A stretch of DNA of 31,444 bases. Source: Saccoglossus kowalevskii (taxonomy: Eukaryota > Hemichordata > Enteropneusta > Harrimaniidae). The stretch spans positions 1 through 31,444 of the forward strand of contig NW_003155066.1 of the NCBI RefSeq assembly GCF_000003605.2, read 5' to 3'. The notes below the pieces were generated by a model, which made no database searches, had not been told where the DNA came from, and saw only the letters and a program-made list of their open reading frames with translations. The position numbers and the translations under genes were made by a program. This document shows positions 199 to 31,444 of the stretch, piece by piece (positions within the stretch are counted from its first letter, which is position 1; each line of letters starts with the position of its first letter).

Positions 199-465
199 AT
201 CCTCCTGAGTCTTTATCAATAACCCAAAGCAACAACGGTAAAGTTATTGAAGACAATACATTGACAGCAGCCTGTACAGCTGATAGTAATCCTGCATCTA
301 CATATACATGGAAATCACCAACAGATGATGAGATAACGACATCATCACAATTAACAATTAATAATATTCAGAGAGATAAATCTGGAGTATATACATGTAT
401 TGCTAAGAGTGCATTACATGATGGAGACAGAAGTGCATCAACTACAATTAGTATAGATGTACAAT
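199..465 (+). CDS. Ig-like domain exon (phase 1-1) of a multi-Ig cell-surface or matrix protein, partial gene
   Basis: This 267-bp exon encodes 89 residues and starts and ends in phase 1, the classic arrangement that lets single Ig domains be added or removed without changing frame. The order fits an I-set/C2-like fold: PPESLSIT (strand A), LTAACTAD with the strand-B Cys, TYTWKSP with the core Trp (strand C), SSQLTINNI (strand E), DKSGVYTC (the D-x-G-x-Y-x-C turn and strand-F Cys), and TTISIDVQ (strand G). The two cysteines would form the intradomain disulfide. The last codon is split after T (CAA T|GT), and a following exon starting AT CCx would restore the frequent Y-P junction. The translation stays open through the donor, so start and end are set by the splice sites, not by ATG or a stop. 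The gene cannot be named: hemicentin-, nephrin- and CD22-like proteins all share this domain type. Bases 355-465 match the commonest downstream monomer exactly, so this exon is the array's founder or is being homogenised with it. Confidence 0.85.
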
Positions 466-473
466 GTAAGTAT
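466..473 (+). promoter_or_regulatory. 5' splice donor of the Ig exon (first of ~250 copies)
   Basis: GTAAGTAT follows CAAT at the exon end. All eight intron bases can pair with the 5' end of U1 snRNA (AUACUUAC); the -1 base is T, not the preferred G. The site closes the exon in phase 1, matching its acceptor. It is the leftmost donor of an array in which the same site recurs about every 123 bp. Confidence 0.8.
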
Positions 474-869
474 ATCACAATTAATAATATTCAGAGAGAT
501 AAATCTGGAGTATTTACATGTATTGCTACGAGTGCATTACATGATGGAGACAGAAGTGCATCAACTACAATTAGTATAAATGTACAATGTAAGTATATCA
601 CAATTAATAATTTTCAGAGAGATAAATCTGGAGTATATACATGTATTGCTAAGAGTACATTACATGATGGAGACAGAAGTGTATCAACTACAATTAGTAT
701 AGATGTACAATGTAAGTATATCACAATTAATAATATTCAGAGAGATCAATCTGGAGTATATACATGTATTGCTAAGAGTGCATTACATGATGGAGACAGA
801 AGTGCATCAACTACAATTAGTATAGATGTACAATGTAAGTATATCACAATTAATAATTTTCAGAGATAA
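466..869 (+). other. In-frame extension of the Ig exon with three further usable donors
   Basis: If the donor at 466 is skipped, the exon frame continues through CKYITINNIQ and repeats the E-F-G half of the Ig domain. Donors at 589, 712 and 835 have the same phase, so use of each would lengthen the protein by 41, 82 or 123 residues and still splice correctly to the next exon. The frame closes at TAA 867-869, made by a 2-bp loss (CAGAGATAA for CAGAGAGATAA). No later donor can therefore give an uninterrupted product unless the broken unit is bypassed. Each added unit carries two Cys, one from the TGT formed over the donor and one from the YTC motif, but no strand-B Cys or core Trp. It would be a half domain. 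Whether this reading is ever used is unknown. Confidence 0.4.
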
Positions 870-955
870 ATCTGGAGTATATACATGTATTGCTAAGAGT
901 GCATTACATGATGGAGACAGAAGTGAGCAACTACAATTAGTATAGATGTACAATG
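861..955 (+). repeat. 120-bp unit: first frame-breaking monomer of the array
   Basis: This unit carries the recurrent AG loss at about 864 (TAA in the exon frame) and a second change, GTGAGCAAC for GTGCATCAAC (net -1). Its length is 120 bp, so the frame downstream returns to that of the exon although a stop has been introduced. The same pair of lesions recurs in the units ending at 2187, 7349 and 17180, which shows that this broken monomer type was itself copied within the array. Confidence 0.85.
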
Positions 956-1200
956 TAAGTATACCACAATTAATAATATTAAGATAGATAAATCTGGAGT
1001 ATATACATGTATTGCTAAGAGTGCATTACATGATGGAGACAGAAGTGCATCAAATACAATTAGTATGGATGTACAATGTAAGTATATCACAATTAATAAT
1101 ATTCAGAGAGATAAATCTGGAGTATATACATGTATTGCTAAGAGTGCATTACATGATGGAGATAGAAGTGCATCAACTGCAATTAGTATAGATGTACAAT

Positions 1201-2310
1201 GTAAGTATATCACAATTAATAATATTCAGAAAGATAAATCTGGAGTACCGGTATATACATGTATTCTAAGAGTGCATTACATGATGGAGATAGAAGTGCA
1301 TCAACTACAATTAGTATAGATGTACAATGTAAGTATATCACAATTAATAATATTCAGAGAGATAAATCTGGAGTATATACATGTATTGCTAAGAGTGTAT
1401 TACACGATGGAGACAGAAGTGCATCAACTACAATTAGTATAGATGTACAATGTAAGTATACCACAATTAATAATATTCAGATAGTTAAATCTGGAGTATA
1501 TACATGTATTACTAAGAGTGCATTACATGATGGAGATAGAAGTGCATCAACTACAATTAGTATAGATGTACAATGTAAGTATATCACAATTAATAATATT
1601 CAGAGAGATAAATCTGGAGTATATACATGTATTACTAAGAGTGCATTACATGATGGAGATAGAAGTGCATCAACTACAATTAGTATAGATGTACAATGTA
1701 AGTATATCACAATTAATAATATTCAGAGAGATAAATCTGGAGTATATACATGTATTGCTAAGAGTGTATTACACGATGGAGACAGAAGTGCATCAACTAC
1801 AATTAGTATAGATGTACAATGTAAGTATACCACAATTAATAATATTCAGATAGATAAATCTGGAGTATATACATGTATTACTAAGAGTGCATTACATGAT
1901 GGAGATAGAAGTGCATCAACTACAATTAGTATAGATGTACAATGTAAGTATATCACAATTAATAATATTCAGAGAGATAAATCTGGAGTATATACATGTA
2001 TTGCTAAGAGTGCATCACATGATGGAGACAGAAGTGCATCAACTACAATTAGTATAGATGTACAATGTAAGTATATCACAATTAATAATATTCAGAGATA
2101 AATCCGGAGTATATACATGTATTGCTAAGAGTACATTACATGATGGAGACAGAAGTGAGCAACTACGATTAGTATAGATGTACAATGTAAGTATATCACA
2201 ATTAATAATATTCAGAGAGATAAATCTGGAGTATAGACATGTATTGCTAAGAGTGTATTACACGATGGAGACAGAAGTGCATCAACTACAATTAGTATAG
2301 ATGTACAATG
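1201..2310 (+). repeat. Higher-order block A, copy 1 (nine units)
   Basis: The block is marked by a 6-bp insertion that makes ACCGGT (1247-1252), by CAGATAGTTAAATC at ~1480, by a run of ACTAAG variants (Ala to Thr) with GTATTACACG variants, by a GCATCACATG unit, and by a 120-bp unit followed by a unit with a nonsense TAG (2234-2236). The same markers recur in the same order at 16070-17303, where one additional ACTAAG unit is present. Shared rare changes in order imply copying of the whole ~1.1-kb block. Confidence 0.85.
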
Positions 2311-2431
2311 TAAGTATATCACAATTAATAATATTCAGAGATAAATCTGGTGTATATACATGTATTGCTAAGAGTGCATCACATGATGGAGACAGAAGTG
2401 TATCAACTACAATTAGTATAGATGTACAATG
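2067..2431 (+). repeat. Broken three-unit cassette, copy 1 (120 + 123 with TAG + 121)
   Basis: It consists of a 120-bp unit (AG loss plus GTGAGCAACTACG), a 123-bp unit with GTATAGACATG (in-frame TAG) and GTATTACACG, and a 121-bp unit with CTGGTGTATAT. The same trio is at 7229-7593. The first two units recur at 17060-17303. All three are non-coding in the exon frame, so their spread was not driven by a protein product. Confidence 0.85.
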
Positions 2432-4172
2432 TAAGTATATCACAATTAATAATATTCAGAGAGATAAATCTGGAGTATATACATGTATTGCTAAGAGTGC
2501 ATTACATGATGGTGACAGAAGTGCATCAACTACAATTAGTATAGATGTACAATGTAAGTATATCACAATTAATAATATTCAGAGAGATAAATCTGGAGTA
2601 TATACATGTATTGCTAAGAGTGTATTACACGATGGAGATAGAAGTGCATCAACAACAATTAGTATAGATGTACAATGCAAGTATATCACAATTAATAATA
2701 TTCAGAGAGATAAATCTGGAGTATATACATGTATTGCTAAGAGTGCATTACATGATGGAGACAGAAGTGTATCAACTACAATTAGTATAGATGTACAATG
2801 TAAGTATATCACAATTAATAATATTCAGAGAGATAAATCTGGAGTATATACATGTATTGCTAAGAGTGCATTACAGGATGGAGACAGAAGTGTATCAACT
2901 ACAATTAGTATAGATGTACAATGTAAGTATATCACAATTAATAATATTCAGAGAGATAGATCTGGAGTATATACATGTATTGCTAAGAGTGCATTACATG
3001 ATGGAGACAGAAGTGTATCAACTACAATTAGTATAGACGTACAATGTGAGTATATCACAATTAATAATATACAGAGAGATAAATCTGGAGTATATACATG
3101 TATTGCTAAGAGTGCATTACATGATGGAGACAGAAGTGCATCAACTACAATTAGTATAGATGTACAATGTAAGTATATCACATTTAATAATATTCAGAGA
3201 GATAAATCTGGAGTATATACATGTATTGCTAAAAGTGCATTACATGATGGAGACAGAAGTGCATCAACTACAATTAGTATAGATGTACAATGTAAGTATA
3301 TCACAATTAATAATATTCAGAGAGATAAATCTGGAGTATATACATGTATTGCTAAGAGTACATTACATGATGGAGACAGAAGTGCATCAACTACAATTAG
3401 TATAGATGTACAATGTAAGTATATCACAAATAATACTATTCAGAGAGATAAATCTGGAATATATACATGTATTGCTAAGAGTGCATTACATGATGGAGAC
3501 AGAAGTGCATCAACTACAATTAGTATAGATGTACAATGTAAGTATATCACAATTAATAATATTCAGAGAGATAAATCTGGAGTATATACATGTATTGCCA
3601 AGAGTGCATTACATGATGGAGACAGAAGTGCATCAACTACAATTAGTATAGATGTACAATGTAAGTATATCACAATTAATAATATTCAGAGAGATAAACC
3701 TGGAGTATATACATGTATTGCTAAGAGTACATTACATGATGGAGATAGAAGTGTATCAACTACAATTAGTATAGATGTACAATGTAAGTATATCACAATT
3801 AATAATATTCAGAGAGATAAATCTGGAGTATATACATGTAATGCTAAGAGTGCATTACATGATGGAGATAGAAGTGCATCAACTACAATTAGTATAGATG
3901 TACAGTGTAAGTATATCACATTTAATAATATTCAGAGAGATAAATCTGGAGTATATACATGTATTGCTAAAAGTGCATTACATGATGGAGACAGAAGTGC
4001 ATCAACTACAATTAGTATAGATGTACAATGTAAGTATATCACAATTAATAATATTCAGAGAGATAAATCTGGAGTATATACATGTATTGCTAAGAGTACA
4101 TTACATGATGGAGACAGAAGTGCATCAACTACAATTAGTATAGATGTACAATGTAAGTATATCAACAATTAA
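2339..4172 (+). other. Stop-free run of about 15 half-Ig units
   Basis: After the 121-bp unit the exon frame is open for about 610 codons and ends after a one-base gain near 4164 (ATCAACAATT). It has no ATG of its own in the exon frame, no splice acceptor and no unique sequence, so it is not an independent gene. Openness follows from a stop-free, multiple-of-three monomer. The run includes one GCAAGT (2677) and one GTGAGT (3046) donor variant. Confidence 0.6.
3292..4030 (+). repeat. Higher-order block B, copy 1: six-unit marker series
   Basis: Two three-unit modules lie side by side. The first is a GTACATTACATG unit, an AATACTATTCAG unit with GGAATATAT, and a unit with ATTGCCAAG. The second is an AAACCTGGAG unit, an ATGTAATGCTAAG unit ending in ACAGTGTAAG, and an ACATTTAAT unit with GCTAAAAGTG. 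The first module recurs at 9928-10297, 12261-12630 and 27893-28262. The second recurs at 9559-9928, 12753-13122 and 14595-14964. The modules are in a different relative order at 9559-10297. Confidence 0.85.
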
Positions 4173-4767
4173 TACTATTCAGAGAGATAATCTGGAGTAT
4201 ATACATGTATTGCTAGAGTGCATTACATGATGGAGACAGAAGTGCATCAACTACAATTAGTATAGATGTACAATGTAAGTATATCACAATTAATAATATT
4301 CAGAGAGATAAATCTGGAGTATATACATGTAATGCTAAGAGTGCATTACATGATGGAGACAGAAGTGCATCAACTACAATTAGTATATATGTACAATGTA
4401 AGTATATCACAATTAATAATATTCAGAGAGATAAATCTGGAGTATATACATGTAATGCTAAGAGTGCATTACATAATGGAGACAGAAGTGCATCAACTAC
4501 AATTAGTATAGATGTACAATGTAAGTATATCACAATTAATAATATTCAGAGAGATAAATCTGGAGTATATACATGTATTGCTAAGAGTGCATTACATGAT
4601 GGAGACAGAAGTGCATCAACTACAATTAGTATAGATGTACAATGTAAGTATATCACAATTAATAATATTCAGAGAGATAAATCTGGAGTATATACATGTA
4701 TTGCTAAGAGTGCATTACATGACGGAGACAGAAGTGCATCAACTACAATTAGTATAGATGTACAGTG
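4030..4767 (+). repeat. Higher-order block C, copy 1 (six units)
   Basis: A GTACATTACATG unit is followed by a corrupted AATACTATTCAG unit (122 bp, three one-base indels), a unit ending AGTATATATG (Asp to Tyr in the read-through frame), an ATGTAATGCTAAG unit with CATAATGG, a consensus unit, and a CATGACGG unit ending ACAGTG. The same order is found at 29000-29738, 203 units away. The middle pair is also at 25558-25804. Confidence 0.8.
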
Positions 4768-5662
4768 TAAGTATATCACAATTAATAATATTCAGAGAGA
4801 TAAATCTGGAGTATATACATGTATTGCTAAGAGTGCATTACATGATGGAGACAGAAGTGTATCAACTACAATTAGTATAGATGTACAATGTAAGTATATC
4901 ACAATTAATAATATACAGAGAGATAAATCTGAAGTATATACATGTATTGCTAAGAGTGCATTACATGATGGAGACAGAAGTACATCAACTACAATTAGTA
5001 TAGATGTACAATGTAAGTATATCACAATTAATAATATTCAGAGAGATAAATCTGGAGTATATACATGTATTGCTAAGAGTGCATTACATGATGGAGACAG
5101 AAGTGCATCAACTACAATTAGTATAGATGTACAATGTAAGTATATCACAATTAATAATATTCAGAGAGATAAACCTGGAGTATATACATGTATTGCTAAG
5201 AGTGCATTACATGATGGAGATAGAAGTGCATCAACTACAATTAGTATAGATGTACAGTGTAAGTATATCACATTTAATAATATTCAGAGAGATAAATCTG
5301 GAGTATATACATGTATTGCTAAAAGTGCATTACATGATGGAGACAGAAGTGCATCAACTACAATTAGTATAGATGTACAATGTAAGTATATCACAATTAA
5401 TAATATTCAGAGAGATAAATCTGGAGTATATACATGTATTGCTAAGAGTGGATTACATGATGGAGACAGAAGTGCATCAACTACAATTAGTATAGATGTA
5501 CAATGTAAGTATATCACAATTAATAATATTCAGAGAGATAAATCTGGAGTATATACAAGTATTGCTAAGAGTGCATTACATGATGGAGACAGAAGTGCAT
5601 CAACTACAATTAGTATAGATGTACAATGTAAGTATATCACAATTAATAATATTCAGAGATAA
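4215..5662 (+). other. Stop-free run of about 12 units without any ATG in the exon frame
   Basis: From the frame correction near 4215 the exon frame stays open to the TAA made by the AG loss at about 5657-5662. All donors from 4275 to 5628 are spaced exactly 123 bp. Start-codon-based ORF calling misses this stretch because the frame contains no ATG. It illustrates that openness is general across the array and is not evidence of a separate gene. Confidence 0.6.
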
Positions 5663-5998
5663 ATCTGGAGTATATACATGTATTGCTAAGAGTGCATTAC
5701 ATGATGGAGACAGAAGTGCATCAACTACAATTAGTATAGATGTACAATGTAAGTATATCACAATTAATAATATTCACAGAGATAAATCTGGAGTATATAC
5801 ATGTATTGCTAAGAGTGCATTTACATGATGGAGACAGAAGTGTATCAACTACAATTAGTATAGATGTACAATGTAAAGTATATCACAATTAATAATATTC
5901 AGAGAGATAAATCTGGAGTATATACATGTATTGCTAAGAGTACATTACATGATGGAGAGAGAAGTGCATCAACTACAATTTAGTATAGATGTACAATG
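5628..5998 (+). repeat. Indel-rich trio of units (121, 124, 125 bp)
   Basis: The units have, in order, loss of AG, a gain of T in GTGCATTTACATG, and gains in GTAAAGTATATC and CAATTTAGTATAG. The GTAAAG at 5873 also weakens that donor. Three one-base gains in homopolymers within about 180 bp stand out from an array in which most long runs have none. They may be real mutations or uncorrected long-read errors. Confidence 0.7.
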
Positions 5999-8117
5999 TA
6001 AGTGTATCACAATTAATAATATCCAGAGAGATAAATCTGGAGTATATACATGTATTGCTAAGAGTGCATTACATGATGGAGATAGAAGTGTATCAACTAC
6101 AATTAGTATAGATGTACAATGTAAGTATATCACAATTAATAATATTCAGAGAGATAAATCTGGAGTATATACATGTAATGCTAAGAGTGCATTACATGAT
6201 GGAGATAGAAGTGTATCAACTACAATTAGTATGGATGTACAATGTAAGTATATCACAATTAATAATATTCAAAGAGATAAATCTGGAGTATATACATGTA
6301 TTGCTAAGAGTGCATTACATGATGGAGATAGAAGTGCATCAACTACAATTAGTATAGATGTACAATGTAAGTATATCACAATTAATAATATTCAGAGAGA
6401 TAAATCTGGAGTATATACATGTAATGCTAAGAGTGCATTACATGATGGAGACAGAAGTGCATCAACTACAATTAGTATAGATGTACAATGTAAGTATATC
6501 ACAATTAATAATATTCAGAGAGATAAATCTGGAGTATATACATGTATTTCTAAGAGTGCATTACATGATGGAGACAGAAGTGCATCAACTACAATTAGTA
6601 TAGATGTACAATGTAAGTATATCACAATTAATATTATTCAGAGAGATAAATCTGGAGTATATACATGTATTGCTAAGAGTGCATTACATGATGGAGACAG
6701 AAGTGCATCAACTACAATTAGTATAGATGTACAATGTAAGTATATCACAATTAATAATATTCAGAGATAAATCTGGAGTATGTACATGTATTGCTAAGAA
6801 TGCATCACATGATGGACACAGAAGTGGATCAACTACAATTAGTATAGATGTACAATGTAAGTATATCACAATTAATAATAATCAGAGAGATAAATCTGGA
6901 GTATATACATGTATTACTAAGAGTGCATTACATGATGGAGACAAAAGTGCATCAACTACAATTATTATAGATGTACAATGTAAGTATATCACAATTAATA
7001 ATATTCAGAGAGATAAATCTGGAGTATATACATGTATTACTAAGAGTGCATTACATGATGGAGATAGAAGTGTATCAACTACAATTAGTATAGATGTACA
7101 ATGTAAGTATATCGCAATTAATAATATTCAGAGAGATAAATCTGGAGTATATACGTGTATTGCTAAGAGTGCATTACATAATTGAGATAGAAGTGTGTCA
7201 ACTATGTACATTAGTATAGATTTACGATGTAAGTATATCACAATTAATAATATTCAGAGATAAATCTGGAGTATATACATGTATTGCTAAGAGTACATTA
7301 CATGATGGAGACAGAAGTGAGCAACTACGATTAGTATAGATGTACAATGTAAGTATATCACAATTAATAATATTCAGAGAGATAAATCTGGAGTATAGAC
7401 ATGTATTGCTAAGAGTGTATTACACGATGGAGACAGAAGTGCATCAACTACAATTATTATAGATGTACAATGTAAGTATATCACAATTAATAATATTCAG
7501 AGATAAATCTGGTGTATATACATGTATTGCTAAGAGTGTATCACATGATGGAGACAGAAGTGTATCAACTACAATTAGTATAGATGTACAATGTAAGTAT
7601 ATCACAATTAATAATATTCAGAGAGATAAATCTGGAGTATATACATGTATTGCTAAGAGTGCATTACATAATGGAAACAGAAGTGCATCAACTACAATTA
7701 GTATAGATGTACAGTGTAAGTATATCACAATTAATAATATTCAGATAGATAAATCTGGAGTATATACATGTATTGCTAAGAGTGCATTACATGATGGAGA
7801 TAGAAGTGCATCAACTACAATTAGTATAGATGTACAATGTAAGTATACCACAATTAATAATATTCAGATAGATAAATCTGGAGTATATACATGTATTACT
7901 AAGAGTGCATTACATGATGGAGATAGAAGTGCATCAACTACAATTAGTATAGATGTACAATGTAAGTATATCACAATTAATAATATTCAGAGAGATAAAT
8001 CTGGAGTATATACATGTATTGCTAAGAGTGTATTACACGATGGAGACAGAAGTGCATCAACTACAATTAGTATAGATGTACAATGTAAGTATATCACAAT
8101 TAATAATATTCAGAGAT

Positions 8118-11069
8118 AAATCTGGAGTATATACATGTATTGCTAAGTGTGCATTACATGATGGAGATAGAAGTGCATCAACTACAATTAGTATAGATGT
8201 ACAATGTAAGTATATCACAATTAATAATATTCAGAGAGATAAATCTGGAGTATGTACATGTATTGCTAAGAGTGCATTACATGATGGAGATAGAAGTGAA
8301 TCAACTACAATTAGTATAGATGTACAATGTAAGTATATCACAATTAATAATATTCAGAGAGATAAATCTGGAATATATACATGTATTGCTAAGAGTGCAT
8401 TACATGATGGACACAGAAGTGGATCAACTACAATTAGTATAGATGTACAATGTAAGTATAACACAATTAATAATATTCAGAGAGATAAATCTGGAGTATA
8501 TACATGTATTGCTAAGAGTGCATTACATGATGGAGACAGAAGTGGATCAACTACAATTAGTATAGATGTACAATGTAAGTATATCACAATTAATAATATT
8601 CAGAGAGATAAATCTGGAGTATATACATATATTGCTAAGAGTGCATTACATGATGGAGACAGAAGTGCATCAACTACATTTAGTATAGATGTACAATGTA
8701 AGTATATCACAATTAATAATATTCAGAGAGATAAATCTGGAATATATACATGTATTGCTAAGAGTGCATTACACGATGGAGACAGAAGTGCATCAACTAC
8801 GATTAGTATAGATGTACAATGTAACTATATCACAATTAATAATATTCAGAGAGATAAATCTGGAGTATATACATGTATTGCTAAGAGTGCATTACATAAT
8901 GGAGACAGAAGTGCATCAACTACAATTAGTATAGATGTACAATGTAAGTATATCACAATTAATAATATTCAGAGAGATAAATCTGGAGTATATACATGTA
9001 TTGCTAAGAGTGCATTACATAATGGAGACAGAAGTGCATCAACTACAATTAGTATAGATGTACAATGTAAGTATATCACAATTAATAATATTCAGAGAGA
9101 TAAATCTGGAGTATATACATGTATTGCTAAGAGTGCATTACATGATGGAGACAGAAGTGCATCAACTACAATTAGTATAGATGTACAATGTAAGTATATC
9201 ACAATTAATAATATTCAGAGAGATAAATCTGGAGTATATACAAGTATTGCTAAGAGTGCATTACATGATGGAGACAGAAGTGCATCAACTACAATTAGTA
9301 TAGATGTACAATGTAAGTATATCACAATTAATAATATTCAGAGAGATAAATCTGGAGTATATACATGTATTGCTAAGAGTGCATTACATGATGGAGACAG
9401 AAGTGCATCAACTACAATTAGTATAGATGTACAATGTAAGTATATCACAATTAATAATATTCAGAGAGATAAATCTGGAGTATATACATGTATTGCTAAG
9501 AGTGCATTACATGATGAAGACAGAAGTGCATCAACTACAATTAGTATAGATGTACAATGTAAGTATATCACAATTAATAATATTCAGAGAGATAAACCTG
9601 GAGTATATACATGTATTGCTAAGAGTACATTACATGATGGAGATAGAAGTGTATCAACTACAATTAGTATAGATGTACAATGTAAGTATATCACAATTAA
9701 TAATATTCAGAGAGATAAATCTGGAGTATATACATGTAATGCTAAGAGTGCATTACATGATGGAGATAGAAGTGCATCAACTACAATTAGTATAGATGTA
9801 CAGTGTAAGTATATCACATTTAATAATATTCAGAGAGATAAATCTGGAGTATATACATGTATTGCTAAAAGTGCATTACATGATGGAGACAGAAGTGCAT
9901 CAACTACAATTAGTATAGATGTACAATGTAAGTATATCACAATTAATAATATTCAGAGAGATAAATCTGGAGTATATACATGTATTGCTAAGAGTACATT
10001 ACATGATGGAGACAGAAGTGCATCAACTACAATTAGTATAGATGTACAATGTAAGTATATCACAATTAATACTATTCAGAGAGATAAATCTGGAATATAT
10101 ACATGTATTGCTAAGAGTGCATTACATGATGGAGACAGAAGTGCATCAACTACAATTAGTATAGATGTACAATGTAAGTATATCACAATTAATAATATTC
10201 AGAGAGATAAATCTGGAGTATATACATGTATTGCCAAGAGTGCATTACATGATGGAGACAGAAGTGCATCAACTACAATTAGTATAGATGTACAATGTAA
10301 GTATATCACAATTAATAATATTCAGAGAGATAAATCTGGAGTATATACATGTATTGCTAAGAGTGCATTACATGATGGAGACAGAAGTGTATCAACTACA
10401 ATTAGTATAGATGTACAATGTAAGTATATCACAATTAATAATATTCAGAGAGATAAACCTGGAGTATATACATGTATTGCTAAGAGTGCATTACATGATG
10501 GAGACAGAAGTGTATCAACTACAATTAGTATAGATGTACAATGTAAGTATATCACAATTAATAATATTCAGAGAGATAAATCTGGAGTATATACATGTAT
10601 TGCTAAGAGTACATTACATGATGGAGACAGAAGTGCATCAACTACAATTAGTATAGATGTACAATGTAAGTATATCACAATTAATAATATACAGAGAGAT
10701 AAATCTGGAGTATATACATGTATTGCTAAGAGTACATTACATGATGGAGACAGAAGTATATCAACTACAATTAGTATAGATGTACAATGTCAGTATATCA
10801 CAATTAATAATATTCAGAGAGATAAATCTGGAGTATATACATGTATTGCTAAGAGTACATTACATGATGGAGACAGAAGTGCATCAACTACAATTAGTAT
10901 AGATGTACAATGTAAGTGTATCACAATTAATAATATCCAGAGAGATAAATCTGGAGTATATACATGTATTGCTAAGAGTGCATTACATGATGGAGACAGA
11001 AGTGCATCAACTACAATTAGTATAGATGTACAATGTAAGTATATCACAATTAATAATATTCAGAGATAA
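8118..11069 (+). other. Stop-free run of 24 units with perfect 123-bp spacing
   Basis: Donor sites from 8206 to 11035 are 23 x 123 bp apart without a single indel, giving about 980 open codons of half-Ig repeats. Amino-acid changes among the units (Ala/Thr/Val at KSA and SAS, Ile/Asn at CIA) are as common as silent ones by eye, which fits neutral drift better than protein constraint. The end is the TAA made by AG loss at 11067-11069. Donor variants GTAACT (8821) and GTCAGT (10789) lie inside. Confidence 0.6.
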
Positions 11070-11434
11070 ATCTGGAGTATATACATGTATTGCTAAGAGT
11101 GCATTACATGATGGAGATAGAAGTGCATCAACTACAATTAGTATAGATGTACAATGTAAGTATATCGCAATTAATAATATTCAGAGAGATAAATCTGGAG
11201 TATATACATGTATTGCTAAGAGTGCATTACATGATGGAGACAGAAGTGCATCAACTACAATTAGTATAGATGTACAATGTAAGTATATCACAATTAATAA
11301 TATTCAGAGAGATAAATCTGGAGTATATACATGTATTGCTAAGAGTGCATTACATGATGGAGACAGAAGTGCATCAACTACAATTAGTATAGATGTACAA
11401 TGTAAGTATATCACAATTAATAATATTCAGAGAT

Positions 11435-17303: not shown

Positions 17304-17425
17304 TAAGTATATCACAATTAATAATATTCAGAGAGATAAATCTGGAGTATATACATGTATTGCTAAGAGTGCATTACATGATGGAGATAGAAGTGAATCA
17401 ACTACAATTAGTATAGATGTACAAT

Positions 17426-18167: not shown

Positions 18168-19160
18168 GTATAATTATATCACGATTAATAATATTCAGAG
18201 AGATAAATCTGGAGTATATACATGTATTGCTAAGAGTGCATTACACGATGGAGACAGAAGTGCATCAACTACAATTAGTATAGATGTACAATGTAAGTAT
18301 ATCACAATTAATATTATTCAGAGAGATAAATCTGGAGTATATACATGTATTGCTAAGAGTGCATTACATGATGGAGACAGAAGTGCATCAACTACAATTA
18401 GTATAGATGTACAATGTATAATTATATCACGATTAATAATATTCAGAGAGATAAATCTGGAGTATATACATGTATTGCTAAGAGTGCATTACACGATGGA
18501 GACAGAAGTGCATCAACTACAATTAGTATAGATGTACAATGTAAGTATATCACAATTAATATTATTCAGAGAGATAAATCTGGAGTATATACATGTATTG
18601 CTAAGAGTGCATTACATGATGGAGACAGAAGTGCATCAACTACAATTAGTATAGATGTACAATGTATAATTATATCACGATTAATAATATTCAGAGAGAT
18701 AAATCTGGAGTATATACATGTATTGCTAAGAGTGCATTACACGATGGAGACAGAAGTGCATCAACTACAATTAGTATAGATGTACAATGTAAGTATATCA
18801 CAATTAATAATATTCAGAGAGATAAATCTGGAGTATATACATGTATTGCTAAGAGTGCATTACATGATGGAGACAGAAGTGCATCAACTACAATTAGTAT
18901 AGATGTACAATGTATAATTATATCACGATTAATAATATTCAGAGAGATAAATCTGGAGTATATACATGTATTGCTAAGAGTGCATTACACGATGGAGACA
19001 GAAGTGCATCAACTACAATTAGTATAGATGTACAATGTAAGTATATCACAATTAATATTATTCAGAGAGATAAATCTGGAGTATATACATGTATTGCTAA
19101 GAGTGCATTACATGATGGAGACAGAAGTGCATCAACTACAATTAGTATAGATGTACAATG
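18168..19160 (+). repeat. 248-bp higher-order dimer, four copies
   Basis: Donor-equivalent sites at 18168, 18416, 18664, 18912 and 19160 are exactly 248 bp apart. Each dimer is a 125-bp unit (GTATAATTATATCACGATT, GCATTACACGATGG) followed by a 123-bp unit with a normal GTAAGT and, in three of four, AATATTATTCAG. Intact donors therefore occur only every second unit. The near identity of the copies marks this as one of the youngest amplifications in the window. Confidence 0.95.
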
Positions 19161-19280
19161 TAAGTATATCACAATTAATAATATTCAGAGATAAATCTGG
19201 AGTATGTACATGTATTGCTAAAAGTGCATCACATGATGGACACAGAAGTGGATCAACTACAATTAGTATAGATGTACAAT

Positions 19281-20265
19281 GTAAGTATATCACAATTAAT
19301 AATAATCAGAGAGATAAATCTGGAGTATGTACATGTGTTGCTAAGAGTGCATTACATGATGGAGACAGAAGTGCATCAACTACAATTAGTATAGATGTAC
19401 AATGTAAGTATATCACAATTAATAATATTCAGAGAGATAAATCTGGAGTATATACATGTATTGCTAAGAGTGCATTACATAATGGAGACAGAAGTGTATC
19501 AACTACAATTAGTATAGATGTACAGTGTAAGTATACCACAATTAATAATATTCAGAGAGATAAATCTGGAGTATGTACATGTATTGCTAAGAGTGCATTA
19601 CATGATGGAGATAGAAGTGGATCAACTACAATTAGTATAGATGTACAGTGTAAGTATATCACAATTAATAATATTCAGAGAGATAAATCTGGAGTATGTA
19701 CATGTATTGCTAAGAGTGCATTACATGATGGAGATAGAAGTGGATCAACTACAATTAGTATAGATGTACAATGTAAGTATATCACAATTAATAATAATCA
19801 GAGAGATAAATCTGGAGTATGTACATGTGTTGCTAAGAGTGCATTACATGATGGAGACAGAAGTGCATCAACTACAATTAGTATAGATGTACAATGTAAG
19901 TATATCACAATTAATAATATTCAGAGAGATAAATCTGGAGTATATACATGTATTGCTAAGAGTGCATTACATAATGGAGACAGAAGTGTATCAACTACAA
20001 TTAGTATAGATGTACAATGTAAGTATATCACAATTAATAATATTCAGAGAGATAAATCTGGAGTATGTACATGTGTTGCTAAGAGTGCATTACATGATGG
20101 AGACAGAAGTGTATCAACTACAATTAGTATAGATGTACAATGTAAGTATATCACAATTAATAATATTCAGAGAGATAAATCTGGAGTATATACATGTATT
20201 GCTAAGAGTGCATTACATAATGGAGACAGAAGTGTATCAACTACAATTAGTATAGATGTACAATG
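19281..20265 (+). repeat. Four-unit higher-order repeat (2 x 492 bp) rich in GTATGTACATG
   Basis: 19281-19773 and 19773-20265 share an AATAATCAG unit with GTATGTACATGTGTTGC, followed by a CATAATGG unit with GTATCAAC; the third unit of each copy also carries GTATGTACATG, while the fourth differs. GTATGT changes Tyr to Cys before the Ig Cys. All spacings are exactly 123 bp. The next unit, ending at 20396, is 131 bp because of an 8-bp tandem duplication (CAATTAGT) at about 20366-20381. Confidence 0.8.
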
Positions 20266-21256
20266 TAAGTATATCACAATTAATAATATTCAGAGAGATA
20301 AATCTGGAGTACATACATGTGTTGCTAAGAGTGCATTACATGATGGAGACAGAAGTGCATCAACTACAATTAGTCAATTAGTATAGATGTACAATGTAAG
20401 TATATCACAATTAATAATATTCAGAGTGATAAATCTGGAGTATATACATGTATTGCTAAGAGTGCATTACATAATGGAGACAGAAGTGCATCAACTACAA
20501 TTAGTATAGATGTACAGTGTAAGTATATCACAATTAATAATATTCAGAGAGATAAATCTGGAGTATGTACATGTATTGCTAAGAGTGCATTACATGATGG
20601 AGATAGAAGTGAATCAACTACAATTAGTATAGATGTACAATGTAAGTATATCACAATTAATAATATTCAGAGAGATAAATCTGGAGTACATACATGTATT
20701 GCTAAGAGCGCATTACATGATGGAGACAGAAGTGTATCAACTACAATTAGTATAGATGTACAATGTATGTATATCACAATTAATAATATTCAGAGAGATA
20801 AATCTGGAGTATATACATGTATTGCTAAGAGTGCATTACATGATGGAGATAGAAGTGCATCAACTACAATTAGTATAGATGTACAATGTAAGTATATCAC
20901 AATTAATAATATTCAGAGAGATAAATCTGGAGTATATACATGTATTGCTAAGAGTGCATTACATGATGGAGATAGAAGTGCATCAACTACAATTAGTATA
21001 GATGTACAATGTAAGTATACCACAATTAATAATATTCAGATAGATAAATCTGGAGTATATACATGTATTACTAAGAGTGCATTACATGATGGAGATAGAA
21101 GTGTATCAACTACAATTAGTATAGATGTACAATGTAAGTATATCACAATTAATAATATTCAGAGAGATAAATCTGGAGTATATACATGTAATGCTAAGAG
21201 TGCATTACATGATGGAGATAGAAGTGCATCAACTACAATTAGTATAGATGTACAAT

Positions 21257-21747
21257 GTAAGTATATCACAATTAATAATATTCAGAGAGATAAATCTGGA
21301 GTATATACATGTATTGCTAAGAGTGGATTACATGATGGAGACAGAAGTGCATCAACTACAATTAGTATAGATGTACAATGTAAGTATATCACAATTAATA
21401 ATATTCAGAGAGATAAATCTGGAGTATATACAAGTATTGCTAAGAGTGCATTACATGATGGAGACAGAAGTGCATCAACTACAATTAGTATAGATGTACA
21501 ATGTAAGTATATCACAATTAATAATATTCAGAGAGATAAATCTGGAGTATATACAAGTATTGCTAAGAGTGCATTACATGATGGAGACAGAAGTGCATCA
21601 ACTACAATTAGTATAGATGTACAATGTAAGTATATCACAATTAATAATATTCAGAGATAAATCTGGAGTATATACATGTATTACTAAGAGTGCATTACAT
21701 GATGGAGATAGAAGTGCATCAACTACAATTAGTATAGATTTACAATG
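21257..21747 (+). repeat. Higher-order block D, copy 2 (490 bp)
   Basis: It has the same order as 13122-13612: a GTGGATTACATG unit, two ATACAAGTATTGC units, and a 121-bp unit with ACTAAG and GATTTACAATG. The copies are 8,135 bp apart. The flanking units differ, so the duplicated segment is about this size. Confidence 0.85.
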
Positions 21748-23455
21748 TAAGTATATCACAATTAATAATATTCAGAGAGATAAATCTGGAGTATATACAT
21801 GTATTGCTAAGAGTGCATTACATGATGGAGACAGAAGTGCATCAACTACAATTAGTATAGATGTACAATGTAAGTATATCACAATTAATAATATTCAGAG
21901 AGATAAATCTGGAGTATATACATGTATTGCTAAGAGTGCATTACATGATGGAGACAGAAGTGTATCAACTACAATTAGTATAGATGTACAATGTAAGTAT
22001 ATCACAATTAATAATATTCAGAGAGATAAATCTGGAGTATATACATGTATTGCTAAGAGTGCATTACATGATGGAGACAGAAGTGTATCAACTACAATTA
22101 GTATAGATGTACAATGTAAGTATATCACAATTAATAATATTCAGAGAGATAAATCTGGAGTATATACATGTATTGCTAAGAGTACATTACATGATGGAGA
22201 CAGAAGTGTATCAACTACAATTAGTATAGATGTACAATGTAAGTATATCACAATTAATAATATTCAGAGAGATAAATCTGGAGTATGTACATGTATTGCT
22301 AAGAGTACATTACATGATGGAGATAGAAGTGCATCAACTACAATTAGTATAGATGTACAATGTAAGTATATCGCAATTAATAATATTCAGAGAGATAAAT
22401 CTGGAGTATATACATGTATTGCTAAGAGTGCATTACATGATGGAGACAGAAGTACATCAACTACAATTAGTATAGATGTACAATGTAAGTATATCACAAT
22501 TAATAATATTCAGAGAGATAAATCTGGAGTATATACATGTATTGCTAAGAGTGCATTACATAATGGAGACAGAAGTGCATCAACTACGATTAGTATAGAT
22601 GTACAATGTAAGTATATCACAATTAATAATATTCAGAGAGATAAATCTGGAGTATATACATGTATTGCTAAGAGTGCATTACATGATGGAGACAGAAGTG
22701 TATCAACTACAATTAGTATAGATGTACAATGTAAGTATATCACAATTAATAATATTCAGAGAGATAAATCTGGAGTATATACATGTATTGCTAAGATTGC
22801 ATTACATGATGGAGATAGAAGTGCATCAACTACAATTAGTATAGATGTACAATGTAAGTATATCACAATTAATAATATTAAGAGAGGTAAATCTGGAGTA
22901 TATACATGTATTGCTAAGAGTGCATCACATGATGGAGACAGAAGTGCATCAACTACATTTAGTATAGATGTACAATGTAAGTATATCACAATTAATAATA
23001 TTAAGAGAGATAAATCTGGAGTATATACATGTATTGCTAAGAGTGCATTACATGATGAAGACAAAAGTGCATCAACTACTATTAGTATAGATGTACAATG
23101 TAAGTATATCACAATTAATAATATTCAGATAGATAAATATGGAGTATATACATGCATTACTAAGAGTGCATTACATGATGGAGATAGAAGTGCATCAACT
23201 ACAATTAGTATAGATGTACAATGTAAGTATATCACAATTAATAATATTAAGAGAGATAAATCTGGAGTATATACACGTATTACTAAGAGTGCATTACATG
23301 ATGGAGATAGAAGTGCATCAACTACAATTAGTATAAATGTACAATGTAAGTATATCACAATTGATAATATTCAGAGAGATAAATCTGGAGTATGTACATG
23401 TATTGCTAAGAGTGCATTACATGATGGAGACAGAAGTGTATCAACTACTTTTTAG
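21659..23455 (+). other. Stop-free run of about 14 units
   Basis: Donors from 21747 to 23346 are 13 x 123 bp apart. The run ends where ACTACTTTTTAGTATAG (+1) closes the frame. Units from 22854 to 23346 carry AAGAG in place of CAGAG and other rare changes, so this part is older or less homogenised than its neighbours. Confidence 0.6.
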
Positions 23456-24576
23456 TATAGATGTACAATGTATGTATATCACAATTAATAATATTCAGAG
23501 AGATAAATCTGGAGTATATACATGTATTGCTAAGAGTGCATTACATGATGGTGATAGAAGTGCATCAACTACAATTAGTATAGATGTACAATGTAAGTAT
23601 ATCACAATTAATAATATTCAGAGAGATAAATCTGGAGTATATACATGTATTGCTAAGAGTGCATTACATGATGGAGATAGAAGTGCATCAACTACAATTA
23701 GTATAGATGTACAATGTAAGTATACCACAATTAATAATATTCAGATAGATAAATCTGGAGTATATACATGTATTACTAAGAGTGCATTACATGATGGAGA
23801 TAGAAGTGCATCAACTACAATTAGTATAGATGTACAATGTAAGTATATCACCATTAATAATATTCAGAGAGATAAATCTGGAGTATATACATGTATTGCT
23901 AAGAGTGTATTACACGATGGAGACAGAAGTGCATCAACTACAATTAGTATAGATGTACAATGTAAGTATACCACAATTAATAATATTCAGATAGATAAAT
24001 CTGGAGTATATACATGTATTACTAAGAGTGCATTACGTGATGGAGATAGAAGTGCATCAACTACAATTAGTATAGATGTACAATGTAAGTATATCACAAT
24101 TAATAATATTCAGAGAGATAAATCTGGAGTATATACATGTATTGCTAAGAGTGCATTACATAATGGAGACAGAAGTGCATCAACTACAATTAGTATAGAT
24201 GTACAGTGTAAGTATATCACAATTAATAATATTCAGAGAGATAAATCTGGAGTATATACATGTATTGCTAAGAGTGCATTACATGATGGAGATAGAAGTG
24301 GATCAACTACAATTAGTATAGATGTACAATGCAAGTATATCACAATTAATAATATTCAGAGAGATAAATCTGGAGTATATACATGTATTGCTAAGAGTGC
24401 ATTACATGATGGAGACAGAAGTGTATCAACTACAATTAGTATAGATGTACAATGTATGTATATCACAATTAATAATATTCAGAGAGATAAATCTGGAGTA
24501 TATACATGTATTGCTAAGAGTGCATTACATGATGGAGACAGAAGTGCATCAACTACAATTAGTATAGATGTACAAT

Positions 24577-26540
24577 GTAAGTATACCACAAATTAATAAT
24601 ATTCAGATAGATAAATCTGGAGTATATACATGTATTGCTAAGAGTGCATTACATGATGGAGACAGAAGTGCATCAACTACAATTAGTATAGATGTACAAT
24701 GTAAGTATATCACAATTAATAATATTCAGAGAGATAAATCTGGAGTATATACATGTATTACTAAGAGTGCATTACATGATGGAGACAGAAGTGCATCAAC
24801 TACAATTAGTATAGATGTACAATGTAAGTATATCACAAATAATAATATTCAGAGATAAATCTGGAGTATATACATGTATTGCTAAGAGTACATTACATGA
24901 TGGAGATAGAAGTGTATCAACTACAATTAGTATAGATGTACAATGTAAGTATATCACAATTAATAATATTCAGAGAGATAAATCTGGAGTATATACATGT
25001 ATTGCTAAGAGTACATTACATGATGGAGATAGAAGTGTATCAACTACAATTAGTATAGATGTACAATGTAAGTATATCACAATTAATAATATTCAGATAG
25101 ATAAATCTGGAGTATATACATGTATTGCTAAGAGTGCATTACATGATGGAGACAGAAGTGCATCAACTACAATTAGTATAGATGTACAATGTAAGTATAT
25201 CACAATTAATAATATTCAGAGAGATAAATCTGGAGTATATACATGTATTACTAAGAGTGCATTACATGATGGAGACAGAAGTGCATCAACTACAATTAGT
25301 ATAGATGTACAATGTAAGTATATCACAAATAATAATATTCAGAGATAAATCTGGAGTATATACATGTATTGCTAAGAGTGCATTACATGATAGAGACAGA
25401 AGTGTATCAACTACAATTAGTATAGATGTACAATGTAAGTATATCACAATTAATAATATTCAGAGAGATAAATCTGGAGTATATACATGTATTGCTAAGA
25501 GTACATTACATGATGGAGACAGAAGTGCATCAACTACAATTAGTATAGATGTACAATGTAAGTATATCACAATTAATAATATTCAGAGAGATAAATCTGG
25601 AGTATATACATGTAATGCTAAGAGTGCATTACATGATGGAGACAGAAGTGCATCAACTACAATTAGTATATATGTACAATGTAAGTATATCACAATTAAT
25701 AATATTCAGAGAGATAAATCTGGAGTATATACATGTAATGCTAAGAGTGCATTACATAATGGAGACAGAAGTGCATCAACTACAATTAGTATAGATGTAC
25801 AATGTAAGTATATCACAATTAATAATATTCAGAGAGATAAATCTGGAGTATATACATGTATTGCTAAGAGTGCATTACATGATGGAGACAGAAGTGCATC
25901 AACTACAATTAGTATAGATGTACAATGTAAGTATATCACAATTAATAATATTCAGAGAGATAAATCTGGAGTATATACATGTATTGCTAAGAGTACATTA
26001 CATGATGGAGACAGAAGTGCATCAACTACAATTAGTATAGATGTACAATGTAAGTATATCACAATTAATAATTTTCAGAGAGATAAATCTGGAGTATATA
26101 CATGTATTGCTAAGAGTACATTACATGATGGAGATAGAAGTGTATCAACTACAATTAGTATAGATGTACAATGTAAGTATATCACAATTAATAATATTCA
26201 GATAGATAAATCTGGAGTATATACATGTATTGCTAAGAGTGCATTACATGATGGAGACAGAAGTGCATCAACTACAATTAGTATAGATGTACAATGTAAG
26301 TATATCACAATTAATAATATTCAGAGAGATAAATCTGGAGTATATACATGTATTACTAAGAGTGCATTACATGATGGAGACAGAAGTGCATCAACTACAA
26401 TTAGTATAGATGTACAATGTAAGTATATCACAAATAATAATATTCAGAGATAAATCTGGAGTATATACATGTATTGCTAAGAGTGCATTACATGATAGAG
26501 ACAGAAGTGTATCAACTACAATTAGTATAGATGTACAATG
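24577..26540 (+). repeat. Higher-order block E: three copies of a module ending in ACAAATAATAATATTCAGAG
   Basis: A CAGATAGATAAATC unit, an ACTAAG unit and a 121-bp unit with CACAAATAATAAT occur in this order ending at 24945, 25435 and 26540. The first two are 490 bp apart and the last two 1,105 bp apart (9 units less 2 bp). In the last two the final unit also has CATGATAGAGAC. The copies show local expansion after the AG loss had occurred. Confidence 0.85.
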
Positions 26541-29500
26541 TAAGTATATCACAATTAATAATATTCAGAGAGATAAATCTGGAGTATATACATGTATTGC
26601 TAAGAGTACATTACATGATGGAGATAGAAGTGTATCAACTACAATTAGTATAGATGTACAATGTAAGTATATCACAATTAATAATATCCAGAGAGATAAA
26701 CCTGGAGTATATACATGTATTGCTAAGAGTGCATTACATGATGGAGACAGAAGTGCATCAACTACAATTAGTATAGATGTACAATGTAAGTATATCACAA
26801 TTAATAATATCCAGAGAGATAAATCTGGAGTATATACATGTATTGCTAAGAGTACATTACATGATGGAGACAGAAGTGTATCAACTACAATTAGTATAGA
26901 TGTACAATGTAAGTATATCACAATTAATAATATCCAGAGAGATAAATCTGGAGTATATACATGTATTGCTAAGAGTACATTACATGATGGAGATAGAAGT
27001 GTATCAACTACAATTAGTATAGATGTACAATGTAAGTATATCACAATTAATAATATTCAGAGAGATAAATCTGGAGTATATACATGTATTGCTAAGAGTA
27101 CATTACATGATGGAGATAGAAGTGTATCAACTACAATTAGTATAGATGTACAATGTAAGTATATCACAATTAATAATATCCAGAGAGATAAATCTGGAGT
27201 ATATACATGTATTGCTAAGAGTACATTACATGATGGAGACAGAAGTGTATCAAGTACAATTAGTATAGATGTACAATGTAAGTATATCACAATTAATAAT
27301 ATTCAGAGAGATAAATCTGGAGTATGTACATGTATTGCTAAGAGTACATTACTTGATGGAGATAGAAGTGCATCAACTACAATTAGTATAGATGTACAAT
27401 GTAAGTATATCGCAATTAATAATATTCAGAGAGATAAATCTGGAGTATATACATGTATTGCTAAGAGTGCATTACATGATGGAGACAGAAGTACATCAAC
27501 TACAATTAGTATAGATGTACAATGTAAGTATATCACAATTAATAATATTCAGAGAGATAAATCTGGAGTATATACATGTATTGCTAAGAGTGCATTACAT
27601 AATGGAGACAGAAGTGCATCAACTACGATTAGTATAGATGTACAATGTAACTATATCACAATTAATAATATTCAGAGAGATAAACCTGGAGTATATACAT
27701 GTATTGCTAAGAGTGCATTACATGATGGAGATAGAAGTGTATCAACTACAATTAGTATAGATGTACAATGTAAGTATATCACAATTAATAATATTCAGAG
27801 AGATAAATCTGGAGTATATACATGTATTGCTAAGAGTGCATTACATGATGGAGACAGAAGTGCATCAACTACAATTAGTATAGATGTACAATGTAAGTAT
27901 ATCACAATTAATAATATTCAGAGAGATAAATCTGGAGTATATACATGTATTGCTAAGAGTACATTACATGATGGAGACAGAAGTGCATCAACTACAATTA
28001 GTATAGATGTACAATGTAAGTATATCACAATTAATACTATTCAGAGAGATAAATCTGGAATATATACATGTATTGCTAAGAGTGCATTACATGATGGAGA
28101 CAGAAGTGCATCAACTACAATTAGTATAGATGTACAATGTAAGTATATCACAATTAATAATATTCAGAGAGATAAATCTGGAGTATATACATGTATTGCC
28201 AAGAGTGCATTACATGATGGAGACAGAAGTGTATCAACTACAATTAGTATAGATGTACAATGTAAGTATATCACAATTAATAATATTCAGAGAGATAAAT
28301 CTGGAGTATATACATGTATTGCTAAGAGTGCATTACATGATGGAGACAGAAGTACATCAACTACAATTAGTATAGATGTACAATGTAAGTATATCACAAT
28401 TAATAATATTCAGAGAGATAAATCTGGAGTATATACATGTATTGCTAAGAGTGCATTACATAATGGAGACAGAAGTGCATCAACTACGATTAGTATAGAT
28501 GTACAATGTAAGTATATCACAATTAATAATATTCAGAGAGATAAATCTGGAGTATATACATGTATTGCTAAGAGTGCATTACATAATGGAGACAGAAGTG
28601 CATCAACTACAATTAGTATAGATGTACAATGTAAGTATATCACAATTAATAATATTCTGAGAGATAAATCTGGAGTATATACATGTATTGCTAAGAGTGC
28701 ATTACATGATGGAGACAGAAGTGCATCAACTACAATTAGTATAGATGTACAATGTAAGTATATCACAATTAATAATATTCAGAGAGATAAATCTGGAGTA
28801 TATACATGTATTGCTAAGAGTACATTACATGATGGAGACAGAAGTGTATCAACTACAATTAGTATAGATGTACAATGTAAGTATATCACAATTAATAATA
28901 TTCAGAGAGATAAATCTGGAGTATATACATGTATTGCTAAGAGTGCATTACATGATGGAGACAGATGTGCATCAACTACAATTAGTATAGATGTACAATG
29001 TAAGTATATCACAATTAATAATATTCAGAGAGATAAATCTGGAGTATATACATGTATTGCTAAGAGTACATTACATGATGGAGACAGAAGTGCATCAACT
29101 ACAATTAGTATAGATGTACAATGTAAGTATATCACAATTATACTATTCAGAGAGATAAATCTGGAGTATATACATGTATTTGCTAAGAGTGCATTACATG
29201 ATGGAGACAGAAGTGTATCAACTACAATTAGTATAGATGTACAATGTAAGTATATCACAATTAATAATATTCAGAGAGATAAATCTGGAGTATATACATG
29301 TATTGCTAAGAGTACATTACATGATGGAGACAGAAGTGCATCAACTACAATTAGTATATATGTACAATGTAAGTATATCACAATTAATAATATTCAGAGA
29401 GATAAATCTGGAGTATATACATGTAATGCTAAGAGTGCATTACATAATGGAGACAGAAGTGCATCAACTACAATTAGTATAGATGTACAATGTAAGTATA

Positions 29501-29850
29501 TCACAATTAATAATATTCAGAGAGATAAATCTGGAGTATATACATGTATTGCTAAGAGTGCATTACATGATGGAGACAGAAGTGCATCAACTACAATTAG
29601 TATAGATGTACAATGTAAGTATATCACAATTAATAATATTCAGAGAGATAAATCTGGAGTATATACATGTATTGCTAAGAGTGCATTACATGACGGAGAC
29701 AGAAGTGCATCAACTACAATTAGTATAGATGTACAGTGTAAGTATATCACATTTAATAATATTCAGAGAGATAAATCTGGAGTATATACATGTATTGCTA
29801 AAAGTGCTTACATGATGGAGACAGAAGTGCATCAACTACAATTAGTATAG
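26452..29850 (+). other. Longest stop-free run (about 27 units) including one compensated frameshift
   Basis: From 26540 to 29123 donors are 21 x 123 bp apart. The unit ending at 29246 loses a base in CAATTATACTATT and regains one in TGTATTTGCTAAG, so about 13 codons are read in another frame before the exon frame resumes. A one-base loss in GTGCTTACATG near 29808 finally closes it. The total is about 1,100 codons. Known families offer no protein built from E-F-G half Ig units, and there is no acceptor, start context or unique region, so I treat it as satellite and not a gene. Confidence 0.6.
29000..29738 (+). repeat. Higher-order block C, copy 2 (six units)
   Basis: It has the same unit order as 4030-4767, including the AGTATATATG unit, the ATGTAATGCTAAG/CATAATGG unit and the CATGACGG unit ending ACAGTG. 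Its second unit is also corrupted by one-base indels, but at different bases from those in copy 1. Confidence 0.8.
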
Positions 29851-29859
29851 ATGTACAAT

Positions 29860-31335
29860 GTAAGTATATCACAATTAATAATATTCAGAGTGATAAATCT
29901 GGAGTATATACATATATTGCTAAGAGTGCATTACATGATGGAGACAGAAGTACATCAACTACAATTAGTACAGATGTACAATGTAAGTATATTACAATTA
30001 ATAATATTCAGAGAGATAAATCTGGAGTATATACATGTATTGCTAAGAGTGCATTACATAATGGAGACACAAGTGCATCAAATACAATTAGTATAGATGT
30101 ACAATGTAAGTATATCACAATTAATAATATTCAGAGAGATAAATCTGGAGTATATACATGTATTGCTAAGAGAGCATTACATGATGGAGACAGAAGTGCA
30201 TCAACTACAATTAGTATAGATGTACAATGTAAGTATATTACAATTAATAATATTCAGAGAGATAAATCTGCAGTATATACATGTATTGCTAAGAGTGCAT
30301 TACATGATGAGACAGAAGTGTATCAACTACAATTAGTATAGATGTACAATGTAAGTATGTCACAATTAATAATATTCAGAGTGATAAATCTGGAGTATAT
30401 ACATGTATTGCTAAGAGTGCATTACATGATGGAGACAGAAGTGCATCAACTACAATTAGTATAGATGTACAATGTAAGTATATTACAATTAATAATATTC
30501 AGAGAGATAAATCTGGAGTATATACATGTATTGCTAAGAGTGCATTACATAATGGAGATAGAAGTGTATCAACTACAATTAGTATAGATGTACAATGTAA
30601 GTATGTCACAATTAATAATATTCAGAGTGATAAATCTGGAGTATATACATGTATTGCTAAGAGTGCATTACATGATGGAGACAGAAGTGCATCAACTACA
30701 ATTAGTATAGATGTACAATGTAAGTATATCACAATTAATAATATTCAGAGTGATAAATCTGGAGTATATACATATATTGCTAAGAGTGCATTACATGATG
30801 GAGACAGAAGTACATCAACTACAATTAGTATAGATGTACAATGTAAGTATATTACAATTAATAATATTCAGAGAGATAAATCTGGAGTATATACATGTAT
30901 TGCTAAGAGTGCATTACATAATGGAGACACAAGTGCATCAAATACAATTAGTATAGATGTACAATGTAAGTATATCACAATTAATAATATACAGAGAGAT
31001 AAATCTGGAGTATGTACATGTATTGCTAAGAGTGCATTACATGATGGAGACAGAAGTGTATCAACTACAATTAGTATAGATGTACAATGTAAGTATATCA
31101 CAATTAATAATATTCAGAGAGATAAATCTGGAGTATATACATGTATTGCTAAGAGTGCATTACATGATGGAGACAGAAGTGTATCAACTACAATTAGTAT
31201 AGATGTACAATGTAAGTATATCACAATTAATAATATACAGAGAGATAAATCTGGAGTATGTACATGTATTGCTAAGAGTGCATTACATGATGGAGACAGA
31301 AGTGCATCAACTATAATTAGTATAGATGTACAATG
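29860..31335 (+). repeat. Right-end variant family (seven-unit spacing)
   Basis: Units here carry CAGAGTGATAAATC, TATGTCACAATT, TATATTACAATT, ACATATATTGC and GACACAAGTGCATCAAAT, which are rare or absent in the rest of the array. A two-unit marker (ACATATATTGC with GTACATC, then CATAATGGAGACACAAG) starts at 29860 and again at 30720, 7 units less 1 bp apart; the missing base is in CATGATGAGACAG near 30308. The family suggests a less homogenised flank near an array edge. Confidence 0.8.
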
Positions 31336-31444
31336 TAAGTATATCACAATTAATAATATTCAGAGAGATAAATCTGGAGTATATACATGTATTGTTAAGA
31401 GTGCATTACATGATGGAGACAGAAGTACGTCAAGTTCAAGTATT
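31336..31444 (+). repeat. Partial, diverged last monomer
   Basis: The unit follows consensus to AGACAGAAGT, then reads ACGTCAAGTTCAAGTATT where GCATCAACTACAATTAGTAT is expected: several substitutions and about one codon fewer, still in the exon frame. It also has ATTGTTAAG for ATTGCTAAG. This is the largest departure from the monomer in the window, and it lies at the cut edge. It may be the start of the native flank of the array or the 3' end of a diverged Ig exon. Confidence 0.6.

Follow-up and report, generated by a model that had tools for sequence, protein, structure and literature searches.

A single-locus tandem repeat apparently grown from half of an Ig exon and its splice donor in Saccoglossus kowalevskii

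Single-locus VNTRs, or minisatellites, inside introns are a known class of repeats, and tandem exon duplication is known to copy whole exons together with both of their splice sites. Some human tandem arrays are reported to sit within introns (PMC2588610), and the Drosophila genes kl-3 and kl-5 are reported to have satellite-containing introns (PMC6508621, PMC11207136). In Dscam, exons of an Ig gene have been duplicated head to tail within the gene and are alternatively spliced (PMC1397879, PMC4835542), and the local repeats of Firre are for the most part restricted to that locus, with one kind of them overlapping exons (PMC4820808). With regard to the manner of growth, the nearest precedent that we found is a 28-kb array at human 2q37.1, in which the last 89 bp of a MER20 have been amplified; the array begins with the full-length copy of this MER20, oriented like the repeats (Warburton et al., 2008; PMC2588610).

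Here, we analyzed a window that represents the whole of contig C4431 (31,444 bp) in the 572-Mb, 4,830-contig assembly of the hemichordate Saccoglossus kowalevskii. The contig opens with intron (198 bp), followed by a single Ig exon of 267 bp (199-465), which leads into an array of 123-bp units (354-31433). This array and the MER20 array are alike in that about 28 kb or more of units of roughly 0.1 kb correspond to the 3' part of a full-length parent, which is found at the array start in the same orientation; however, the parent is a transposon in the human case and a coding exon here, the passages on the MER20 unit mention no splice donor whereas the C4431 unit carries one, and the MER20 repeats are diverged (∼80% like the parent) whereas the present array has 96% matches (PMC2588610). 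Thus, the initial annotation, which knew of no described class for such a repeat, was too strong in this respect. The C4431 array also resembles intronic VNTRs, being composed of tandem units of high identity at one locus, apparently within a gene and with local duplication, but its unit is derived from the neighboring exon and carries the donor of that exon. Satellite-like tandem repeats in introns are likewise shared with kl-3 and kl-5, although those introns are megabases long and exon-derived units with donors are not described in the excerpts of these reports (PMC6508621, PMC11207136). In contrast with Dscam-type duplication of whole exons, only the donor half was copied here (PMC1397879, PMC4835542), and the label of tandem exon duplication fails because the unit contains neither the acceptor nor the first 155 bp of the exon. 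Firre, a gene for a long noncoding RNA, contains its repeats as discontinuous copies (PMC4820808), whereas the C4431 units are arranged head to tail. A search of the open-licence PMC literature, a scope outside which most subscription papers fall, found no description of an array made of an exon half and its own donor. The coordinates of the features are shown in Table 1.

Table 1. Features of the window (positions in contig C4431)
Feature	Position	Strand	Details	Basis
Upstream intron	1..198	+	Ends at pyrimidine-rich acceptor TTCTTTGTTACACAG	Sequence
Complete Ig-domain exon	199..465	+	267 nt, phase 1-1, 88 full codons	Pfam Ig_3 2.3e-11; boundaries matched in C55 and C4725 paralogous exons
Exonic part of the unit (3' 112 bp of Ig exon)	354..465	+		Identical to consensus
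Authentic donor and first 11 intron bases, within unit	466..476	+	GTAAGTATATC	Sequence, consensus
Array of 123-bp copies of exon half plus donor	477..31433	+	Contig ends at or in array	Tandem Repeats Finder, 354-31433
Second donor	589..594	+	Exon of 390 nt, open, in phase	Frame analysis
Third donor	712..717	+	Exon of 513 nt, open, in phase	Frame analysis
Fourth donor	835..840	+	Exon of 636 nt, open, in phase	Open frame 96-869
Start of fifth unit	846..869	+	2-bp AG deletion, first read-through stop	Sequence, frames, unit alignment
Diverged terminal 18 bases, contig end	31427..31444	+	Array edge or assembly error	Alignment

Tandem Repeats Finder identified one array in the window, with a period of 123, 252.7 copies, 96% matches and 0% indels. 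Wraparound alignment resolved it into 252 full units and one partial unit of 99 bases, and 213 of the full units were exactly 123 bp long. Each unit consists of the 3' 112 bp of the exon followed by 11 bp of the intron. The exon's own copy (354-476) was identical to the array consensus, which was also the commonest unit type (18 out of 252 units, the exon's own copy counted in), and the exonic 112 bp were matched identically by 19 of the 251 other units. The last of these counts gives no support to the idea that the exon has been conserved while the units drift. These results agree with the initial annotation, which had derived the monomer from the donor-side half of the neighboring Ig exon together with the beginning of the following intron, had equated bases of the exon with the commonest monomer and had counted 252 units in a single orientation; only its estimate of ∼12 bp of intron should be corrected to 11 bp. 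The copied part was also labeled the E-F-G half of the Ig domain, a putative assignment based on Ig sequence motifs. It should be noted that 252 is a lower bound on the copy number if the contig is right, as C4431 ends inside the array.

Similarity searches show that the exon has the sequence of an animal-type Ig domain, and the solved structures resembling it included carcinoembryonic antigen (3.6e-17), contactins, DSCAM and Roundabout. A search of its own genome with the exon protein counted 211 matches, and the comparison of paralogues covered those on C55 and C4725. Four Ig exons on C55 and one on C4725 had the same 3' end, GATGTACAAT directly followed by GTAAGT. An AG acceptor was present at the matching place in three of the C55 exons and in the C4725 exon (the exons starting with AT, AT, AT and AC, respectively), and the remaining C55 exon was truncated by the contig end. 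The boundaries of the window exon are therefore supported by the matching ends and acceptors of its paralogues. Outside its own genome, relatives were sought in prokaryotic and viral collections, which are silent on other animals: the exon protein gave 133 pattern stretches in prokaryotic genome contigs and 12 in viral contigs, with 0 confirmed relatives in either, and two exact patterns of the unit found nothing in viral contigs.

The exact 16-mer that joins the exon end to the donor occurred 227 times in the genome (220 forward and 7 reverse), a few of which may be chance matches considering that the reversed pattern gave 3. The window contained 214 of these sites, and the others were located at the array edge on C4725 (3), in the next Ig exon of C4725 (1), in the Ig exons of C55 (4) and, one each, on C446, C934, C1501, C1989 and C2730. 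Among the exons seen to share this donor on C4431, C4725 and C55, just one had an array beside it. Copying of a different kind is suggested on C55, where a paralogous stretch (C55:34843-44376, minus strand) carries these Ig exons: those at 44112 and 36380 (minus strand) were identical over 286 bp including ∼20 bp of intron and then diverged abruptly, and a third (41080, minus strand) was 94.8% like exon 44112 over 271 bp. These similarities would represent whole-exon copying or conversion.

We then examined the distribution of the repeat with a 34-base pattern across the unit junction, allowing at most 3 mismatches on both strands of the 572-Mb assembly. All 242 matches were in the forward direction and none in the reverse; 239 were located in the window (0.00 expected there by chance) and 3 at C4725:385370-385651, which makes the count complete. 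The pattern recovered 239 rather than all 252 of the window units, so that copies with more than 3 mismatches, or those lying in assembly gaps, are missed by it. Within these limits, no junction match was found in the assembled sequence beyond C4431 and the C4725 edge, and a search of the same assembly with window bases 1-353 (the upstream intron and the 5' half of the exon) found a single occurrence. The initial annotation had named a widespread satellite lacking the Ig exon as the finding that would overturn its view; what was observed is one contig and one scaffold gap edge. Classical satellite DNA, which is present at many sites, does not fit such a distribution. On the other hand, the units were found head to tail and their length lies within the range of the minisatellite or VNTR class, from tens of bp up to a few hundred (123 bp, 252.7 copies and 96% matches), and the array belongs to one locus provided that C4431 and the C4725 gap edge, as we infer, are the same place. 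Based on its sequence, the array thus looks like a single-locus repeat that would fill one intron of a multi-Ig gene, and not like a dispersed satellite.

The C4725 sites border a gap of 28,500 N (356864-385363); other gaps in the fetched stretch of this scaffold measured 3,510, 23,679 and 737. At the left edge of the gap, a different Ig exon opens, with 21 of 34 bases like the window exon, and the 60 bases preceding it matched at 18 positions. The right edge holds ∼2.5 copies of the unit, the last of which is shortened and decayed (alignment score of 68.5, whereas 1,000 composition shuffles reached at most 57.5). The next Ig exon, located near C4725:386,071, follows ∼0.4 kb beyond this decayed unit in the same direction. 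In the window, the array has an Ig exon on its 5' side, and on C4725 a decayed unit and then an Ig exon lie on the 3' side of the array edge. Most simply, C4431 would be placed inside this gap, and the array would fill the intron between two Ig exons. However, the two contigs are unjoined in the assembly, the 28.5-kb gap is ∼3 kb shorter than C4431, which implies an error in the estimated gap or in the length of the array, and a second, unassembled copy of the gene is also possible. An open frame of 9,596 codons that appeared at C4725:385380 in the protein search was a run of N in the gap and was not considered as a gene. Two features further along this scaffold were also observed. A 162-codon open frame (L007:916-1404) extends across the donor of the next Ig exon, from this exon into a possible further one, and ∼7 kb downstream of that Ig exon there is a 24-bp tandem repeat (L007:7735-8152; 17.4 copies, 71% matches), which overlaps a minus-strand open frame of 160 codons (L007:7609-8091).

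Considering that the contig ends at the array, that the scaffold gap is smaller than the contig and that the terminal 18 bases diverge, it might be argued that the array length was inflated or even invented by the assembler. We regard this as improbable: the 252 units fall into 156 types in irregular order, C4725 carries a decayed array edge followed by the next Ig exon, and the gap estimate and C4431 agree within ∼3 kb. In our opinion, the locus is likely to be a single-locus tandem repeat occupying one intron of a multi-Ig-domain gene, to have been founded by duplication of an exon half plus its donor and to be removable as an intron.

With regard to its origin, the array would go back to a small tandem duplication that took in the last 112 bp of the Ig exon together with the adjoining 11 bp of intron. 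A short AT-rich repeat was probably the site of slippage or unequal exchange. In the exon, the motif ACAATTA occurs twice in a row around the unit start (ATCACAATTAACAATTAAT), and it occurs once at the consensus unit junction, which reads ATCACAATTAAT. Judging from these motifs, slippage or unequal exchange at ACAATTA is a plausible founder. Further rounds of local duplication would then have produced an array of at least 252 copies. The gene can probably still splice to the next Ig exon with the donor of the exon itself or with that of an early copy, and the array would then be removed as an intron; the reason is that the true donor precedes all of its copies and that the duplicated segment included no good acceptor. 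A single contig displays how a non-coding tandem array can arise from a protein-coding exon with the intact parent alongside.

The units had a mean of 2.2 substitutions each, and differences were present at 3.3% of sites between random pairs of units and at 3.1% between neighbors. Rare variants were most often shared at lags of 4, 2, 121 and 7 units, which, together with the large number of unit types, is as expected from local duplication. Some length change or gap was present in 40 of the 252 units, and in 34 the net length breaks the frame; 5 units contain a stop and 207 are open in the Ig frame. In the exonic columns, we counted 24 synonymous, 75 missense and 3 nonsense changes as distinct variants, compared with 22.6, 74.8 and 4.6 expected for the same changes placed at random sites. 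Thus, no coding constraint could be detected in the unit variation, and growth of the array was most likely non-coding and neutral. Although recent copying would explain why 207 units are still open, this number is also compatible with coding use. One form of such use would be a coding domain array that is translated as one long exon, to which the 41-codon unit without a stop in the Ig frame and stop-to-stop frames of up to 1,146 codons might lend themselves. However, we consider it extremely unlikely and mostly refuted: 34 of the 252 units shift the frame, stops are present in five, read-through from the exon halts at 869 and the substitution classes fit neutrality. A domain-repeat array of the LPA or DMBT type was rejected on the same frame changes, stops and substitution counts.

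Two variants were found in more than one of the 252 units and are either recurrent or spread by local copying: a 2-bp AG deletion at unit columns 17-18, present in 19 units, and an insertion of TA at the donor (column 113), present in 6. In addition, among the matches listed for the exon protein, matches of 43 residues recurred every 248 bp (18163, 18411, 18659 and 18907) within 18163-19035 of the window, pointing to a local higher-order block of two units (125+123).

Donors deserve separate consideration. The dinucleotide GT was retained in 249 of the 252 units and the complete GTAAGT in 236. When distinct variants were counted, the GTAAGT columns varied at least as much as the exonic columns (1.17 and 0.91 per site, respectively), whereas the share of copies carrying a change was smaller for GTAAGT (1.1% per site) than for the exonic columns (1.8%). 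Thus, no clear constraint on the donor was observed, although the copy-weighted rates leave room for a weak one. With regard to acceptors, the best AG in the unit is preceded by 55% pyrimidines in 20 bases, compared with 70% at the real acceptor, so that, lacking a good acceptor, the units make poor cassette exons. It had initially been proposed that the units cannot behave as exons; this is right for cassette exons but not for extensions of the parent exon through tandem donors. Because the 41 codons of the unit are free of stops in the Ig frame, the exon would become longer if a downstream donor were used. The donors at 466, 589, 712 and 835 are all GTAAGT and give exons of 267, 390, 513 and 636 nt that are open and in phase, whereas an exon ending at the next donor (955) includes a stop, owing to the 2-bp deletion in the fifth unit. 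Among 222 exact donors of the form AAT/GTAAGT, phase is kept by 70 and the frame is open for only these 4.

Such an arrangement raises the possibility of a length switch, in which the first four donors would be interchangeable and the protein would contain one Ig domain plus zero to three extra half-Ig segments of 41 residues, whereas later donors would yield stop-containing, probably degraded transcripts. It is consistent with the open, in-phase exons of the first four donors and the stop before 955. On the other hand, no synonymous excess was found over the array as a whole, and half an Ig domain without its partner strands would be unlikely to fold; we therefore hold this possibility to be unlikely, a minority reading of what is most likely a clean, unusual and neutral case of exon-derived tandem growth. 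With a similarly small chance of being right, the array might be viewed as a natural tandem-donor device with ∼240 near-identical sense donors, in which the length of the isoforms with zero to three extra segments would depend on the reach of the spliceosome in its search for a donor and on the turnover of units close to the exon. Short exons are generally favored by exon definition, and for this reason splicing is likely to proceed from donor 466 or from one of the few that follow it. The locus would be a natural test of donor choice, since the gene would have hundreds of near-identical donors to choose from in cis; whether position (the first donor or an exon-length limit) or chance decides would be revealed by its transcripts.

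Finally, we considered whether the intronic array itself could be functional, with ∼240 U1-binding donor copies having an effect on the transcript, such as retention of U1 or suppression of early polyadenylation. GTAAGT is kept in most units and none is present on the reverse strand of the window, the sense strand of the array has neither AATAAA nor ATTAAA, and none of the five single changes that would create a polyadenylation signal was seen. Going by per-class rates, the last observation would occur by chance in ∼7% of cases, in a test that was chosen post hoc and is weak; for the absence of the two signals themselves, an iid expectation is invalid in a repeat. The lower copy-weighted rate of change in GTAAGT also points in this direction, but the number of distinct variants per site, which is at least equal to that of the exonic columns, does not. 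Overall, such a function appears very unlikely, and neutral growth of the array is still preferred. A search of Rfam with window bases 1-1500 gave no match. The RNA of two units, which is mostly exonic, folded better than most shuffled sequences (z of -2.66; 2 out of 200 shuffles were as good).
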